From positions 1 through 8,446 of the forward strand of contig CAMLHU010000086.1 of assembly GCA_946479825.1 (NCBI GenBank): a stretch of 8,446 nt of DNA, written 5' to 3'. The position numbers and the translations under genes were made by a program. The notes under the pieces were generated by a model that did not search any database, was not told where the DNA came from, and saw only the letters and a list, made by a program, of their open reading frames with translations. This stretch comes from an uncultured Gemmatimonadota bacterium. Its GTDB lineage: Bacteria; Gemmatimonadota; Gemmatimonadetes; Gemmatimonadales; GWC2-71-9. Position 1 is the stretch's first letter, and the number at the start of each line of letters is the position of its first letter. Below, piece after piece: positions 1,145 to 8,446 of this stretch.

Positions 1145-1524
1145 GCACTGTCTACCGCGTGAACGTGTGCGTGCCCGCCGGCCGGTGGCTTCGGGCCGTC
1201 ACTGCCGATACCCAGGCGCTGCGGGCGGATTGGGTCGCGGCGGCCGCTACCGCCGCGGTGGCGGCGCGTACGCCGGCGCTGCGGCAGGTGACCGTGACCG
1301 CGCTGGTGCGCCAGCAGACCATCGGCGGCCGCGCGGTGTTCGCCGCCGGCGATGTGCGCGCGTCGCTGGACGCCGCCCTGGAGGGCCTGGTCGCCGCCGG
1401 CGTGCTCCGCGGCCGTACCAGACGTCACGTCGTGGCCGACTCCCTCGAGCTGGGTGTGCCCACCGGCGAGCTGGAGCCGCTGCTGACGCTCGAACTCACG
1501 GAGGTGAGAGGCGATGGCGGCTGA
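1141..1524 (+). CDS. RusA-like (Holliday-junction resolvase fold?) protein with missing catalytic acids
   Basis: A 127-residue protein; ATG 1141 forms an ATGA overlap and follows GGGAGG at 1128-1133. The order of elements resembles the RusA-like family of actinophages: an N-terminal strand (YRVNVCVPAGRWLRAV), a helix with Trp31, a strand (RQVTVTALVRQQ), the helix DVRASLDAALEGLVAAGVL at 71-89, then a HVVADSLELGVPTG segment and a final strand (LLTLEL). RusA normally has DxDN...K before LDAL and a DD pair after the 'AGV' turn. Here the aligned positions read D71, R73, A74 and D77, with R90-G91 in place of DD, so metal-dependent cleavage seems lost. The assignment rests on pattern memory, not a search. 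It may be an inactive DNA-binding relative or an unrelated fold. It overlaps the next gene by 11 nt. Confidence 0.45.
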   Translation: MSTVYRVNVCVPAGRWLRAVTADTQALRADWVAAAATAAVAARTPALRQVTVTALVRQQTIGGRAVFAAGDVRASLDAALEGLVAAGVLRGRTRRHVVADSLELGVPTGELEPLLTLELTEVRGDGG

Positions 1525-2173
1525 GATCAAGACCGAGCAGCAGTTGAAGATCATGCGCCAGTACGCGGCGGGCGCCGAGCTGGTGGACATCGGCGAGAGG
1601 TTGGGCATCGACCGCGACACCGTGGCGGGCACGGTCAGCACGCTGGCCGGCTTCGTGCGGGGACGCGCGCGGGAGTTGGTGCGCCAGTACGAGGCAGCGC
1701 ATCCCAGGCCGGCCGCGCCTGCGCCGCCGACGGCGCCGCAGCAGATCGACGTGCCGGTGCTTGCGAGGACGCCGGAGCCACCGCTGGGCGCCGAGGTCGT
1801 GCTGGTGCGGGCGGAACGCGCGGGCGGAAGGTACGCGACGAAGGCGGGGAGGATCCGCGCTCTCGTCGCCGCCCTGGAGGTCGACCTGGCCGAGGCCGAG
1901 CGGGTCATCGCCCAGGAACGACGCATCCAGGACCTGAAGGCCCAGCTGGAGCGCGAGACCGCCAAGCTGCGTGAGCTGCGAAGCGGCGGCGCCAAGCCGG
2001 CGACCTCGAATGGCAGTGCCAGAACGGCGGCGTCAGGCAGTGACCCGACGACCCGCGAGGTGCGGGAGTGGGCGGCAGCCAACGGCGTCCCGTGCCCGAG
2101 CAAGGGCCGGTTCCTGCCGGCCAGCGTGCTCGAGGCGTACCACGCGGCGCATTCGGAGGTGTCCGGTGGCTGA
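1514..2173 (+). CDS. HTH - coiled coil - Lsr2-type C-terminal DNA-binding domain protein
   Basis: A 219-residue protein. ATG 1514 follows GGAGGTGAG at 1500-1508 and overlaps the previous gene by 11 nt. Three parts are visible. Residues 8-47 form an HTH-like segment (AELVDIGERLGIDRDTVAGT). Residues 64-92 are a Pro/Ala-rich linker. Residues 112-156 form a long charged helix with Leu/Ile/Val at heptad-like spacing, typical of a coiled coil. After a Ser/Gly/Thr-rich linker (157-177), residues 180-213 read as the Lsr2 C-terminal domain: REVREWAAANG, then KGR at 197-199 in place of the usual RGR minor-groove motif, then PASVLEAYHAAH. Lsr2 is the actinobacterial xenogeneic silencer that binds AT-rich DNA. 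The Lsr2 N-terminal oligomerisation domain is absent. The coiled coil may replace it (inference), giving a protein that bridges or anti-silences DNA. Confidence 0.75.
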   Translation: MAAEIKTEQQLKIMRQYAAGAELVDIGERLGIDRDTVAGTVSTLAGFVRGRARELVRQYEAAHPRPAAPAPPTAPQQIDVPVLARTPEPPLGAEVVLVRAERAGGRYATKAGRIRALVAALEVDLAEAERVIAQERRIQDLKAQLERETAKLRELRSGGAKPATSNGSARTAASGSDPTTREVREWAAANGVPCPSKGRFLPASVLEAYHAAHSEVSGG

Positions 2174-2531
2174 CGACCGAGAGGCCGCGATCCGCCTGGA
2201 CGAGCGGGTGCGGACGCTGCGGATGGCGGCGCAGAAGCTGTGGGCGGCGGCCGCCGTGCTGGACCCGGCGATCAACGACCGACTGTTGGCCGTGACCGAC
2301 CGGGAGCTGGACACCCTGCGCGCGGTGGCGGACGGGAAGTCCAACCACCAGATCGCCCGGGAGCTGCAACTGTCGGTGGAGACGGTCAAGACCCGGCTGC
2401 GGGTGCTGTATCGCAAGTTGGGTGTCGATGACCGGGCGCACGCGGTGGCGGTGGCCTACGAGTACGGGCTGCTGATCCCGGCCTACGTGTCCACCCGGTC
2501 GTACCCGGCTGTCCACCTGGAGGTGGCCTGA
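2166..2531 (+). CDS. LuxR-type helix-turn-helix transcriptional regulator without receiver domain
   Basis: A 121-residue protein. GTG 2166 is chosen because GGAGGTG (2155-2161) precedes it and it makes the GTGGCTGA overlap with the previous stop; longer in-frame extensions would run deep into that gene. Residues 1-38 form an Arg/Ala-rich helix. Residues about 42-105 are a canonical LuxR/GerE HTH: L-TDRELDTLRAVADGKSN, HQIARELQLS, VETVKTRLRVLYRKLGV, DDRAHAVAVAYEYGLL. The TVKTRLRVLYRKLGV recognition-helix region is intact. There is no phosphoreceiver or autoinducer domain, so it is a stand-alone binder like other small phage LuxR-HTH proteins. The C-terminal 16 residues (IPAYVSTRSYPAVHLEVA) are an extension of unknown role. 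It ends at TGATG, overlapping the WhiB start. Confidence 0.9.
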   Translation: MADDREAAIRLDERVRTLRMAAQKLWAAAAVLDPAINDRLLAVTDRELDTLRAVADGKSNHQIARELQLSVETVKTRLRVLYRKLGVDDRAHAVAVAYEYGLLIPAYVSTRSYPAVHLEVA

Positions 2532-2821
2532 TGGGCGAGCGCGTTGGTACCCACTACCAGACCTCGAGCATGCCGGTGCTGCCCGAGTTCCCGAACGCGG
2601 CGTGTCGGGGCGAGGACATCGACGTGTTCTTCGCCCCGGACACCGAGGCGGGCGAGGGCATCACCTGGCGGGCCGAGCAGGCGCGCCAGGTCTGCTGGCG
2701 CTGCCCGGAGCGCAAGGCCTGCCTGGAGTACGCCTTGGCGAATCCGGCGCTGGTCGGGGTGTGGGGTGGCACGACCGCCAAGGACCGGCAGGCCATGCGC
2801 GCCGACAAGGCGGAGTCGTAG
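2531..2821 (+). CDS. whiB: WhiB-like iron-sulfur transcriptional regulator
   Basis: A 96-residue protein starting at ATG 2531 within a TGATG junction, preceded by GGAGGTG at 2519-2525. It has the full WhiB signature: Cys25 (AACRGED), then Cys55-x2-Cys58-x5-Cys64 (VCWRCPERKAC) to hold a [4Fe-4S] cluster, then the GVWGG turn at 76-80 and a basic tail (TTAKDRQAMRADK) that contacts DNA. The DVFF motif at 31-34 also matches the family. WhiB proteins partner the principal sigma factor region 4 in actinobacteria. Phage copies such as that of mycobacteriophage TM4 can interfere with host WhiB function and exclude superinfection; whether this one does so is inference. The exact subfamily cannot be told, so the symbol is generic. 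Its stop is TAG, the only non-TGA stop in the operon. Confidence 0.95.
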   Translation: MGERVGTHYQTSSMPVLPEFPNAACRGEDIDVFFAPDTEAGEGITWRAEQARQVCWRCPERKACLEYALANPALVGVWGGTTAKDRQAMRADKAES

Positions 2822-5037: not shown

Positions 5038-5561
5038 CCGACATGCTGATGGTCAGGAGCGACGTCGCGGTCGACGGCGCGTACCAGGCGGTTGTCGAGG
5101 CCGGTCCGGACGTGTCGATCCCACTGGACCGCGACCGGGCGGTGGCGTACGCGATGGCGGTGTTGACGGCGGTGATGCACGCCGATCACGACGCGGGGGT
5201 GTTCGCGCAGTTCACCGGGAAGCTGGGGCTGTCGCAGGCGCATGCGGGGCATGCGGTGGCGGCGATGCGCGAGCGCCGCAAGCCGGTCGACGACGTGGCG
5301 ACGGATCCGCTGCGGTTCGTGCCGGGCGTCTCGGCGCTCACCGGCAAGGGCTTCATCAAGGTCTCCCGCCGTGGTGTGGCGTGGTGCCAGCTCGCGCCGG
5401 CCGCGCTGGCCGAGCACGCCCTGTACGCGCTGCGCGCGGTGACGGCGACCGACGTGGACGCCGTCTACTTCCGCTACCTCACGCGAGACCTGGGCGTGCC
5501 GGAGGACCGGGCGCGGGTCGCGGTGGAGGACGTCGGCAACTACTACGAGGGGCAGCAGTGA
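5034..5561 (+). CDS. Hypothetical protein, helical, Asp/Ala-rich
   Basis: A 175-residue protein from GTG 5034 (GTGA overlap). The nearest GGAGG (5016-5020) is 13 nt away, so initiation probably relies on coupling. It is mostly predicted helix. Residues 32-55 (DRDRAVAYAMAVLTAVMHADHDAG) and 56-82 (VFAQFTGKLGLSQAHAGHAVAAMRERR) look like two helices joined by a short loop. A central part contains TDPLRFVPGVSALTGKGFIKVSRRG, and a final helical repeat contains the pair AEHALYALRAV / DLGVPEDRARVAVEDVG. 'LGLSQAHAGHAVAAM' could be a degenerate HTH but lacks a convincing recognition helix. There are no membrane segments or metal clusters. I do not recognise the family. Coding status is secure from length, codon bias and both overlaps. 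Confidence 0.75.
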   Translation: MTDMLMVRSDVAVDGAYQAVVEAGPDVSIPLDRDRAVAYAMAVLTAVMHADHDAGVFAQFTGKLGLSQAHAGHAVAAMRERRKPVDDVATDPLRFVPGVSALTGKGFIKVSRRGVAWCQLAPAALAEHALYALRAVTATDVDAVYFRYLTRDLGVPEDRARVAVEDVGNYYEGQQ

Positions 5562-6070
5562 CCAAGATCAGACTGGAGAGCAGCGTCTCCACCTCGGCGT
5601 CCCTGGCCCTCGAGCAGTTGGCCAGCAAGCTCTACGCCTCGCCGGGCATCCGGATCGTCGGCGTGGTGGAGCTGCGCCACACCGAGCGACTCCAGCCGGC
5701 GCCGGAGACCGACAAGGAACCGGCCGTGAAGATGCAGGTGTCGGCGTTGGAGATCGCCCGTGACGAGCAGGAGGACGCGCTGCGCCGGGCGATGCGGGCC
5801 CTGTACATGCACCGCACCGCTACGGGCACGATCGACGAGGACGGCGCGGTGGAGCTGTCGGAGTCGACGCTGCGCCTGGCCGCTGGCGAGTTGCACGCCC
5901 TCGAGGCGGCCCGCCTGCGGGCGGCGCTCAGCCACTGGGCGGACTACGCCCACCGGGTCCTGCACACCCAGGGCATCACCTACGCGGAGATGTGCGCAGA
6001 GCTGAGGGCGGTTGTCAACGGCCTCGATCAGGCGCTCCGGCGCGATCGGGACGGTGACTCCGATGGCTGA
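5558..6070 (+). CDS. Conserved actinophage/prophage hypothetical protein
   Basis: A 170-residue protein. GTG 5558 is chosen for its GTGA overlap and GAGGGG at 5547-5552; the frame is open well upstream but inside the previous gene. It appears to be a two-layer protein. Residues 18-60 hold a helix and strand (ALEQLASKLYASPGIRIVGV, then VELRHTERLQ). A strand-helix region follows (VKMQVSALEIARDEQEDALR, about 66-85), then a helical C-terminal half with ALYMHRTATGTIDEDG and HWADYAHRVLHTQGITYAEM. The string of 'PG.R..GVVEL', 'V..LEIA..EQED' and 'HWA.YA.RVL' recalls a family found in many Streptomyces and related phages with no known function. There are no catalytic motifs. It ends in an acidic DRDGDSDG tail and overlaps the next gene by the 8-nt ATGGCTGA. 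Confidence 0.8.
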   Translation: MTKIRLESSVSTSASLALEQLASKLYASPGIRIVGVVELRHTERLQPAPETDKEPAVKMQVSALEIARDEQEDALRRAMRALYMHRTATGTIDEDGAVELSESTLRLAAGELHALEAARLRAALSHWADYAHRVLHTQGITYAEMCAELRAVVNGLDQALRRDRDGDSDG

Positions 6071-7001: not shown

Positions 7002-7318
7002 GCGTCCGACTGACGAAGCTCCTCGAGCTGCACCTGGTGCACGACCCAGACAAGGGCGAGGTGGCGGTGGAGATGCTGGCGGCCGCCGGTGAGGAGCGTG
7101 TCCGGTACACGGTCAAGGGCCGGTACGGCGACGCGAAACTCGAACCCACGGCGACGCTGGTCGTCGACCAGCCGACGTACGACGACACCTTCTCGGATCC
7201 CGGCTGGCGACGGACCCTGCCGCTCGGCCCGGCGCTGGCCCGGGTGGGTCTGGACTGCCGCCGGCTCGAGGTGCTCGAGATGAAGCGGGAGCGCCTGCCT
7301 GCCGAGGACGTGACCTGA
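6998..7318 (+). CDS. Hypothetical protein, beta-rich
   Basis: A 106-residue protein from GTG 6998, with TAGGAGG (6986-6992) five nt upstream and a GTGA overlap. It looks like a compact alpha/beta protein. Predicted strands include KLLELHLVHD, EVAVEMLA, ERVRYTVKGRYG, AKLEPTATLVVD and CRRLEVLEMKRERL. Asp16 and Asp18 lie in the loop HDPDKGE, and the loop VDQPTYDDTFSDPG is acidic, so metal binding is possible but unproven. There are no membrane segments and a single Cys. I do not recognise the family. Its TGA overlaps the next ATG by one base (TGATG at 7316-7320). Confidence 0.72.
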   Translation: MSVRLTKLLELHLVHDPDKGEVAVEMLAAAGEERVRYTVKGRYGDAKLEPTATLVVDQPTYDDTFSDPGWRRTLPLGPALARVGLDCRRLEVLEMKRERLPAEDVT

Positions 7319-7734
7319 TGACCCAGCTCTGGTCGTGGCTGCTGACGGTGGTCGGCGTGACCGGCCTGTATCTCGCCGGCCGCAAGTCGAAGGCCGGTTG
7401 GGCGGTGGGCTTCGGCGCGCAGGCGCTCTGGATCGCCTACGCGGTGGTGACGCGGCAGTGGGGCTTCATTGCCTCGGCGCTGGCCTACGGCTCGGTGTAC
7501 GCCCGCAACTGGCTGCGCTGGCGACGTGAGGCCCGGCCGGTGGAGGCCGAGCAGCGAGTAGACGACGATCGCCTGTATCTCGACCTCAAGGGCGCCCGCG
7601 AACGGCTGTGTCGGGCCCAGACCGGCCTGAACCCGACCGACGCGAACATCCTTCAGGGCGGCATCGACCGCATCGATCTCGTCGCCTGCGACCTTCCTCA
7701 GTGGTCGCGACACGATGGCGGCCGCCATGGCTGA
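7318..7734 (+). CDS. Membrane protein with three predicted helices and a cytosolic tail
   Basis: A 138-residue protein starting at ATG 7318 in a TGATG junction. Three hydrophobic segments are evident: about residues 4-20 (LWSWLLTVVGVTGLYLA), 27-44 (WAVGFGAQALWIAYAVVT) and 48-62 (WGFIASALAYGSVYA). Basic loops (GRKSK between the first two; NWLRWRREARP after the third) fit a three-helix topology with a soluble C-terminal domain of about 70 residues. The QALW.AYA...R.W.F..S...Y...YARN.LRW pattern recalls small membrane proteins of actinophages that look distantly like half of a PnuC- or SemiSWEET-type bundle. Transport is not shown. The soluble tail is acidic and helical (RLYLDLKGARERLCRAQ). The last 8 nt are shared with the next gene. 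Confidence 0.75.
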   Translation: MTQLWSWLLTVVGVTGLYLAGRKSKAGWAVGFGAQALWIAYAVVTRQWGFIASALAYGSVYARNWLRWRREARPVEAEQRVDDDRLYLDLKGARERLCRAQTGLNPTDANILQGGIDRIDLVACDLPQWSRHDGGRHG

Positions 7735-8044: not shown

Positions 8045-8155
8045 TCCACCGCACAACCGAACACCGACGTTCGGCCCGGCTCCGCTTCCCCTGGAGCCGG
8101 GCCGTCGTCCATCAAGTACCAACATCAACATAAGTCGATCTCCACGGGGTGATGC
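8045..8155 (+). promoter_or_regulatory. Only intergenic region: terminator plus leader of the downstream gene
   Basis: This 111-base stretch is the only non-coding DNA in the window. It holds the terminator at 8072-8104 and then an AT-richer leader (8105-8155, including CATCAACATAAGTCG). CATAAG at 8129-8134 matches a -10 hexamer at 4 of 6 positions, but I see no convincing -35 at the right distance, so a promoter is only possible. GGGGTGA at 8146-8152 may be the ribosome site for GTG 8156, with short (3-nt) spacing. Confidence 0.4.
8072..8104 (+). terminator. Rho-independent-like hairpin without U-tract
   Basis: A perfect 12-bp GC-rich stem pairs 8072-8083 (CGGCCCGGCTCC) with 8093-8104, around a 9-nt loop (GCTTCCCCT). 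It lies 27 bases after the last stop codon of the operon. There is no T-run after the stem, which is common for terminators in high-GC actinobacteria and their phages. It would stop the long upstream transcript, so the gene at 8156 probably needs its own promoter. Confidence 0.75.
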
Positions 8156-8446
8156 GTGACCTGGCTGAAGGTGGACGACGGCTTGCCGTTCGACCCGAAG
8201 ATGCTTTCGCTCGGCCGTACCAAGCGGGAGGTCAACGAGTCGGTCGGCACGCTGGTGCGCCTGTGGTCGTGGGTGGCCCCGCCGCGCCCCGAAGGCTTAA
8301 AGGCGGCGGGGGGGGTCGAGAAGATCGCCACGCCCCAGGGCCACCGATACCAGGATCGGCGCCGAGAGGGCGAGCAGCATCGGCGTCGTCGCCGCCAGCG
8401 CCTCGGCCACGCGGCGCACGCTCACGCTCCAGCCGGCGCGGGTCAG
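8156..8446 (+). CDS. Phage replication initiator-like protein, N-terminus (partial, 3' part suspect)
   Basis: GTG 8156 opens a frame that runs to the window end (97 codons). The first ~41 residues (VTWLKVDDGLPFDPKMLSLG ... NESVGTLVRLWSWVA) resemble, from memory, the start of replication-initiation or helix-loader-type proteins in actinophages, which begin 'TW.K.DD...' followed by a 'K...L....' helix and a 'G...R...W..' helix. From about residue 42 (base 8279) the translation becomes Pro/Gly- and then Arg/His-rich (RRREGEQHRRRRRQRLGHAA), with weaker G/C third-position bias. It no longer looks like protein of this family, and the expected 'DG.V' segment is missing. I therefore trust only the part up to about 8280. 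The rest is probably foreign sequence joined on; see the junction at 8277-8315. Confidence 0.5.
   Translation, partial: MTWLKVDDGLPFDPKMLSLGRTKREVNESVGTLVRLWSWVAPPRPEGLKAAGGVEKIATPQGHRYQDRRREGEQHRRRRRQRLGHAAHAHAPAGAGQ
8277..8311. repeat. 9-bp inverted repeat beside an 8-G run at a suspected junction
   Basis: CCCCGCCGC (8277-8285) pairs with GCGGCGGGG (8303-8311) around a 17-nt loop that contains the locally AT-rich GGCTTAAAG. An 8-base G run occupies 8308-8315. The structure sits where + strand coding ends and a credible minus-strand frame begins. It could be a terminator between convergent genes, or the site of a hairpin-mediated template switch. Confidence 0.6.
8315..8446 (-). CDS. Possible membrane-protein fragment on the minus strand (ActF/NrfD-like?), internal piece
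   Basis: Read from 8446 leftwards, this is a 44-codon open segment with no start or end: LTRAGWSVSVRRVAEALAAT, then TPMLLALSAPILVSVALGRGDLLD. By hand count 40 of 44 codons end in G or C, against 27 of 37 for the + frame over 8336-8446. The text has a basic amphipathic stretch leading into a transmembrane helix. The 'GWSV.VRR.AE..A.T.P...L...PI' pattern recalls subunits of alternative complex III (ActF) of environmental bacteria, which would be out of place in a phage. The identity is a memory-based guess. That the minus strand is coding here is better supported than what it encodes. Confidence 0.35.

Follow-up and report, generated by a model that had tools for sequence, protein, structure and literature searches.

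The window (the whole 8,446-nucleotide stretch of contig CAMLHU010000086.1 analyzed here) encodes a 219-residue multi-domain protein in which a predicted helix-turn-helix (HTH) head is joined through a proline-rich linker and a helical stalk to an Lsr2-type DNA-binding tail. With moderate confidence, we read this protein as a regulator, encoded by a mobile element, of that element's early genes, one that would bind DNA at two points through its head and its tail. We favor this reading because the Lsr2_DNA-bd domain is matched without the Lsr2 oligomerization domain PF11774 and a head predicted to be of HTH type is kept in six proteins; because WhiB, a transcription-factor domain, heads 22 of 83 relatives; because the first Arg of the Lsr2 RGR core is lost in 76 of these 83 proteins vs. 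kept in all 64 Lsr2 proteins of cellular genomes; because relatives sit beside ERF and WhiB genes (locus L105), beside a RusA gene (L001), and on plasmids with GGDEF genes (two of them with WhiB); and because two other regulator genes adjoin it in a high-GC (guanine-plus-cytosine) element. The domain make-up, the lack of a PF11774 match, the swapping of heads within the group, and the group's RGR change were all established computationally.

We infer that the protein would act as a dimer. The N-terminal GerE/NarL-like HTH would recognize an operator within the early region of the element itself, two subunits would pair through the helical stalk, which would also fix their spacing, and the C-terminal Lsr2-type domain would grip DNA nearby via the minor groove as an auxiliary anchor. 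In the group overall such a tail would need AT-rich DNA less than Lsr2 does, perhaps only mildly less in the window protein, which has Lys in the core. With two heads and two tails, each dimer could then loop or bridge DNA locally, so that early genes would be repressed or organized.

The original prediction, made from the letters of the window, gave the coordinates and translation of this gene correctly: the open reading frame (ORF) begins with an ATG at 1514 and its stop codon ends at 2173, and GC by codon position is coding-like (0.73/0.55/0.90). The gene and its parts are as follows.

1501..1506, plus strand: likely ribosome-binding site GAGGTG, 7 bases ahead of the ATG, read directly from the letters
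1514..2173, plus strand: HTH-stalk-Lsr2_C gene (ORF, Pfam, AlphaFold2, homologue P0003)
1535..1699, plus strand: predicted head, residues 8–62, a four-helix GerE/NarL-like HTH (AlphaFold2, Foldseek, VIA, leave-one-out head profile)
1700..1789, plus strand: Pro-rich linker, residues 63–92, with 10 Pro in 30 residues and mostly low pLDDT (predicted local distance difference test)
1790..1984, plus strand: helical stalk, residues 93–157, with helices 93–103 and 106–157 (AlphaFold2); a dimer coil is possible, unproven
2042..2149, plus strand: Lsr2_DNA-bd domain PF23359, residues 177–212 (Pfam, phmmer), with AlphaFold2 helices 180–190 and 203–218
2102..2110, plus strand: KGR core, residues 197–199, in place of the Lsr2 RGR minor-groove motif (sequence)

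The Lsr2 C-terminal DNA-binding domain that had been proposed was confirmed by Pfam, in which PF23359 matched residues 177–212 with an E-value of 2.3e-10 (40.1 bits, cut-off 26.9), and by phmmer matches to the solved Lsr2 domains 2kng, 6qkq, and 6qkp (E 3.5e-4 to 4.4e-4). The motifs REWAAANG, KGR (197–199), and PASVLEAYHAAH are present as first described. PHROG matches include phrog_1223 (Lsr2-like) and phrog_31427 (unknown function, residues 121–215). Lsr2 DNA-binding structures were not among the structural matches listed, a comparison that was filled by the head (residues 1–65) and in which no tail-alone search was made. The N-terminal Lsr2 domain was rightly called missing: the Pfam scan, listed to E 10, gave no PF11774 match, and the predicted HTH stands in its place. 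No Ku domain was matched in the Pfam or PHROG scans. A defense-system role was considered and set aside, as PADLOC matched the protein itself only to a methyltransferase profile, at that profile's Lsr2-like end. The window tail has a one-residue insertion after the core (GRFLP), also seen in P0005 (GRFLP; loci L043 and L073) and absent from the other window-head relatives.

For the head, an AlphaFold2 model built on a six-row alignment placed four helices at residues 8–18, 23–30, 34–45, and 49–62, with block pLDDT values of 96–97 over residues 11–60. An HTH had been proposed at residues 8–47; such a fold is predicted (AlphaFold2, with Foldseek and VIA alignments), while the boundary fell some 15 residues short and the sequence matches are sub-threshold. 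HTH families matched residues 7–41 below curated Pfam cut-offs (HTH_28, 0.0056; HTH_23, 0.0068), and the head scored 12.3 bits against PF00196 (GerE), below the cut-off of 23.5. Foldseek and VIA aligned the head part with GerE/NarL/LuxR-type DNA-binding domains such as those of DosR (1zlj) and GerE (1fse), an alignment over residues 1–65 of the predicted four-helix HTH fold; unlike these domains, the head falls below the Pfam GerE cut-off and sits N-terminal to a stalk protein. Residues 8–62 are predicted from the model to form a GerE/NarL-like HTH whose last helices bear the motif LAGFVRGRARELV, which in window-type proteins reads.AG..RGRAR..V with variations. Six proteins share this head as a conserved unit: P0001 (the window protein), P0003, P0061, P0073, P0074, and P0081. 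In leave-one-out tests a profile of five heads scored the sixth at 40.8–65.8 bits vs. maxima of 5.8–11.8 in 300 shuffles, and the window protein, when left out, scored 65.8 bits vs. at most 11.8. Four further candidates (P0002, P0005, L042, and L118) are HTH-like by eye and were not significant by the head profile, and we did not count them as sharing the head. That the HTH would add sequence specificity, as the original prediction held, fits this anatomy, and the domain evidence supports a probable DNA-binding protein with an HTH head and an Lsr2 tail.

Between head and tail, the proposed Pro-rich linker was borne out (10 Pro in residues 63–92), and a long helix at residues 106–157 was predicted confidently by AlphaFold2. 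The coiled coil suggested at residues 112–156 fared less evenly: the helix is there, while heptad periodicity above that of shuffles is not clear, the a/d hydrophobic periodicity of residues 106–157 being marginal (reached by 309 of 5000 shuffles).

A single-sequence search of the protein collection (7995 candidates scored) returned the window protein itself only. A two-row alignment with P0002 added recovered P0003, which is 33% identical over residues 7–215 (head, stalk, and tail), and a six-row, linker-free profile matched 112 proteins at E ≤ 0.01 among 7999 scored candidates. Together with P0003, the 82 of these that outranked the best-placed protein with PF11774 form the 83-protein group considered here (the stalk-Lsr2_C group: a helical stalk followed by an Lsr2-type tail, with no PF11774), an arrangement that the window protein has. 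By N-terminus, 22 members carry WhiB, 46 begin with an MTIAAL-like segment, and 15 have other starts, six of them with the window head. The MTIAAL segment follows WhiB in some WhiB-headed members (P0037, P0068, and P0079), and the headless MTIAAL forms may have split from WhiB-headed ones. The HTH-plus-Lsr2 architecture is not unique to the window, since five unnamed metagenomic proteins (P0003, P0061, P0073, P0074, and P0081) share the head motif, stalk, and Lsr2-type tail; in these, GR is preceded by A, V, L, H, or T rather than K, linkers and stalk length vary, and the first head helices are missing from P0061 as read.

The remaining known systems resemble the window protein in part. WhiB-stalk-Lsr2_C proteins (Streptomyces phage Kromp gp52, Streptomyces genome proteins, and the C-terminal part of PHROG 472) also have a stalk and an Lsr2-type tail, usually without the first Arg, but their head is WhiB and not an HTH. 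PHROG 472 is named "WhiB transcriptional factor" and contains stalk-Lsr2_C, as its positions 349–520 are matched by P0026, a protein without WhiB. Classical Lsr2 and phage Lsr2-like proteins (PF11774 plus PF23359) have the C-terminal PF23359 in common with the window protein, but carry the N-terminal oligomerization domain and neither HTH nor stalk (the PF11774-bearing profile matches are 107–140 residues long). The Ku-Lsr2_C fusions of cluster J mycobacteriophages also place an Lsr2-type tail on another DNA-active phage protein, though with a Ku core and a retained RGR motif, according to excerpts of PMC8612146. Phage proteins of another kind with a fused Lsr2 tail are thus already described in those excerpts; no HTH-Lsr2 or WhiB-Lsr2 fusion appeared among the open-access PMC papers listed by text searches, the only literature covered. 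The NCBI name for similar proteins is "Lsr2 family DNA-binding protein." Scans of viral contigs with P0003, Kromp gp52, the window gene at 5558–6067, and L042 found no relative, and a scan with P0002 found P0002 only. One locus, L118 7810–8550 (G582:C25), encodes a protein that opens with a segment judged HTH-like by eye and then carries two Lsr2-type tails in tandem, the first preceded by a stalk and the second by another helical stretch; both RGR places are degenerate (SGV and AGQ).

To compare stalks, these were cut by pattern from 70 of the 83 proteins (13 dropped), and 59 of 68 WhiB- or MTIAAL-headed stalks entered the kinship test. Eight window-type and prophage stalks aligned with those 59 at 71% in HHalign (score 28.0, vs. 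no more than 17.3 across 30 column shuffles and 17.8 for the reversed profile), a value that fell to 52% with the six window-head rows alone and to 6% when P0061 was also removed. A stalk profile search found P0061 at 8.5e-6 and P0002 at 1.5e-5; the window protein did not rise above its own shuffles. Window-type stalks are likely, though not firmly, akin to those of WhiB-headed members.

Lsr2 and H-NS enter the minor groove through a Q/RGR motif (excerpts of PMC6936261 and PMC7074111). The window protein has KGR instead, and RGR occurs in 7 of 83 stalk-group members vs. 63 of 64 Lsr2 proteins from cellular genomes, in which the first Arg is invariant (the remaining one reads RGK). The first Arg was lost in 76 and kept in 7 of the 83, and lost in 41 and kept in 5 of the 46 that remained after thinning at 75% identity. 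VGR (32) and TGR (26) are the commonest cores of the group, Lys occurs in the window protein only, and the second Arg is retained in 81 of 83 tails. RGR was also found in all 24 PF11774-bearing profile matches, a set that may overlap with the 64 cellular Lsr2 proteins, and in the Lsr2 of viral contig L074. Among proteins that carry an Lsr2-type tail without the stalk, 14 of 15 keep the first Arg (L034, with KGR, is the exception; L037 reads RGS and L083 RGR). Strong loss of the first Arg, to Val, Thr, and others, thus marks the stalk group, and supports a weaker AT dependence of its tails or, in some of them, a loss of DNA binding.

These results bear on the silencer-type roles first suggested for the protein, which are lowered because PF11774 is absent and because there are no AT-rich islands. 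Mixed filaments with host Lsr2 are disfavored by the missing oligomerization domain. More generally, we give little credence to an anti-silencer that would compete with host Lsr2 at AT-rich sites or poison Lsr2 filaments. A DNA-binding domain of Lsr2 type whose core is changed conservatively, to KGR, would suit that role, and phage counter-silencers of H-NS and MvaT exist (PMC6936261, in excerpt), but the dominant-negative silencer fragments known from excerpts of PMC7074111 retain the oligomerization domain, most group members have an altered core, and relatives also occur on plasmids, with unrelated heads. Targeting of host Lsr2 sites is likewise not favored, given the loss of the first Arg in most of the group and the lack of strong AT-rich islands, although KGR is in itself a mild change. 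A still weaker candidate, which we consider highly improbable, is a xenogeneic-type silencer of the CgpS kind that would serve the element itself and gain specificity from the HTH. Phage-encoded Lsr2 is frequent, CgpS maintains lysogeny (both from excerpts of PMC8612146), and KGR is possible in phage Lsr2-like proteins; this role is nevertheless weakened by the unmatched oligomerization domain, by the group's RGR loss, and by the base composition of the window and of four relatives' loci. The lowest 50-bp GC value in the window, 0.48 at position 8104, lies inside the simulated range (minima with a mean of 0.51 and a lowest value of 0.46), and AT-rich target sites in the window were rejected on this ground. 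The four loci have 70.6–74.1% GC and no strong AT-rich islands; the 50-bp minimum of L001 (0.48) was just under the lowest of 100 simulations (0.50), and those of the other three were not. Lsr2-encoding phages have an overall lower GC content (excerpts of PMC8612146).

Relatives were found in prophages, in a Streptomyces phage (Kromp gp52), and on plasmids. P0002, whose NCBI name is from Thermomonospora cellulosilytica, lies in IMG/VR record L001 with RusA as the next gene; P0061, on the IMG/VR viral contig 3300037193_001772 (L105), follows YqaJ and ERF genes and precedes a WhiB gene; and P0005 (Haloactinopolyspora alba), also in an IMG/VR record, lies beside an SNF2-type helicase gene. Four Streptomyces/Kitasatospora plasmids carry stalk-Lsr2_C matches, as does one ParA/ParB-bearing contig (G534:C8); in another search, 16 of 19 matched plasmid records matched the WhiB part only. 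The window-head profile matched 5 of 394 Actinomycetes genomes at 1e-12 (at most seven candidates scored per genome), of which three remain after setting aside a classical Lsr2 (G477) and a tail-only match (G357). The stalk-Lsr2_C group is accessory. Of seven independent stalk-family loci inspected, four have WhiB nearby or fused (the window, L001, L105, and L071; not L111, L112, or L073/L113). On all four plasmid records a GGDEF-annotated gene lies upstream of the stalk-Lsr2_C match, a count without a background rate, and WhiB precedes GGDEF in L115 and L120; L120 has a broken annotation at the match itself. The annotated GGDEF/stalk-Lsr2_C regions are given below. At L111 6157–8609 a GGDEF gene (Pfam 9.6e-29) likewise lies about 1.2 kb upstream.

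L114 7679–9531: plasmid GGDEF/stalk-Lsr2_C region
L115 5788–7369: plasmid GGDEF/stalk-Lsr2_C region
L116 5880–7438: plasmid GGDEF/stalk-Lsr2_C region
L120 2780–4354: plasmid GGDEF/stalk-Lsr2_C region

The window itself has 70.8% GC and a tightly packed plus-strand series of small genes, and the 219-residue protein is probably from a phage or plasmid of high-GC actinobacteria. Its label as phage-type is plausible from its neighbors, two of which are listed below, but among the 19 window ORFs PHROGs revealed no clear structural gene or integrase, with one tail-protein match at E 0.036 (the gene at 1141). The gene at 1141–1524, just upstream, had been read by eye as RusA-like; this idea was rejected, as it found no support in Pfam, PHROGs, or tblastn against phages and plasmids, nor when the gene was compared directly with the L001 RusA.

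2166..2531, plus strand: next gene, a GerE/LuxR-type HTH protein (Pfam GerE 5.7e-15), whose start overlaps the end of 1514–2173
2531..2821, plus strand: WhiB family gene (Pfam Whib 6.7e-19), a domain that in 22 relatives is fused to the stalk and tail

Several observations qualify the two-point reading or suit its rivals. Six Lsr2-like proteins of annotated phages, a small and biased sample picked as matches to P0001 or P0003 (L035, L036, L038, L039, L040, and L072), read KGR in four cases, TGR in one, and RGR in one, so that KGR does not set the window protein apart and weighs little; the window's Lys is a mild change that may simply be the phage form. In some members the tail may have lost DNA binding, of which L118 is a warning. 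More than 10% of actinophage genomes contain WhiB (excerpts of PMC8612146), so its proximity at stalk-family loci is weak evidence. The ERF, YqaJ, or RusA genes beside relatives, and a replication-initiator-like start at 8156 in the window, would instead suit an accessory factor that anchors the element's replication or recombination machinery to DNA, with the Lsr2-type tail as a generic grip as in cluster J Ku-Lsr2. The Ku-Lsr2_C fusions described in the excerpts of PMC8612146, and the Lsr2-type tails present in a methyltransferase profile and on large proteins that by eye resemble helicases or nucleases, point the same way. We nonetheless consider such a factor unlikely: the head is an HTH, or WhiB in 22 relatives, both regulator domains; other tail carriers mostly keep the first Arg, which the stalk group does not; and the window's replication-like gene is about 6 kb away. 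Finally, the degenerate minor-groove motif of the group's tails might mean that one end of the protein, head or tail, is a protein-interaction domain (e.g., for WhiB, a sigma factor, or RNA polymerase) and that the other alone binds DNA. The 22 members (of 83) in which WhiB is fused to the stalk and tail are consistent with this, as are the WhiB genes two genes downstream in the window and adjoining P0061; the frequency of WhiB in actinophages, its presence at only four of seven loci, and the second Arg kept in 81 of 83 tails make it rather improbable.

Beyond the two-point regulator proposed for the window, we tentatively suggest, with some doubt, that the group is an unnamed class of actinobacterial mobile-element regulators. 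In such a class a portable stalk and Lsr2-derived tail, which has usually shed its first AT-hook Arg, would be set on exchangeable heads (GerE-like HTH or WhiB) and would follow a GGDEF gene on Streptomyces-type plasmids (in two, in the order WhiB, GGDEF, Lsr2 tail), and a silencer domain would be re-used as a GC-tolerant anchor for element-specific switches, possibly linked to cyclic diguanylate (c-di-GMP). Lsr2-type proteins of phages and plasmids are usually taken as silencers or anti-silencers, and the "Lsr2 family" database label may mislead for a group without the oligomerization domain and usually without the full AT-hook core. If the suggestion is true, high-GC elements can employ an Lsr2 domain as a generic anchor, its binding having been tuned away from AT-rich DNA.

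Some additional features were observed in the window and among tail-bearing proteins. The window ORF at 8156–8446 matches phage replication initiators over its first 47 residues and is unrelated past a G-rich run, possibly a contig-end artifact or a join. The first ~80–90 residues encoded at 7318–7734 match a widespread actinophage protein often annotated as a PnuC-like transporter (318 records), the remainder being unmatched in that record search. RGR-bearing Lsr2-type tails occur on large proteins (helicase-like, nuclease-like, or other by eye) in L030, L031–L033, L056, L083, L095, and P0106, and an Lsr2-type tail also ends a type II methyltransferase profile (PADLOC PDLC03328). In Thermobifida phage P1312, gene 011 (L037 1243–1719) encodes a 158-residue protein with an Lsr2-type tail bearing RGS, and lies between capsid and head-tail adaptor genes.
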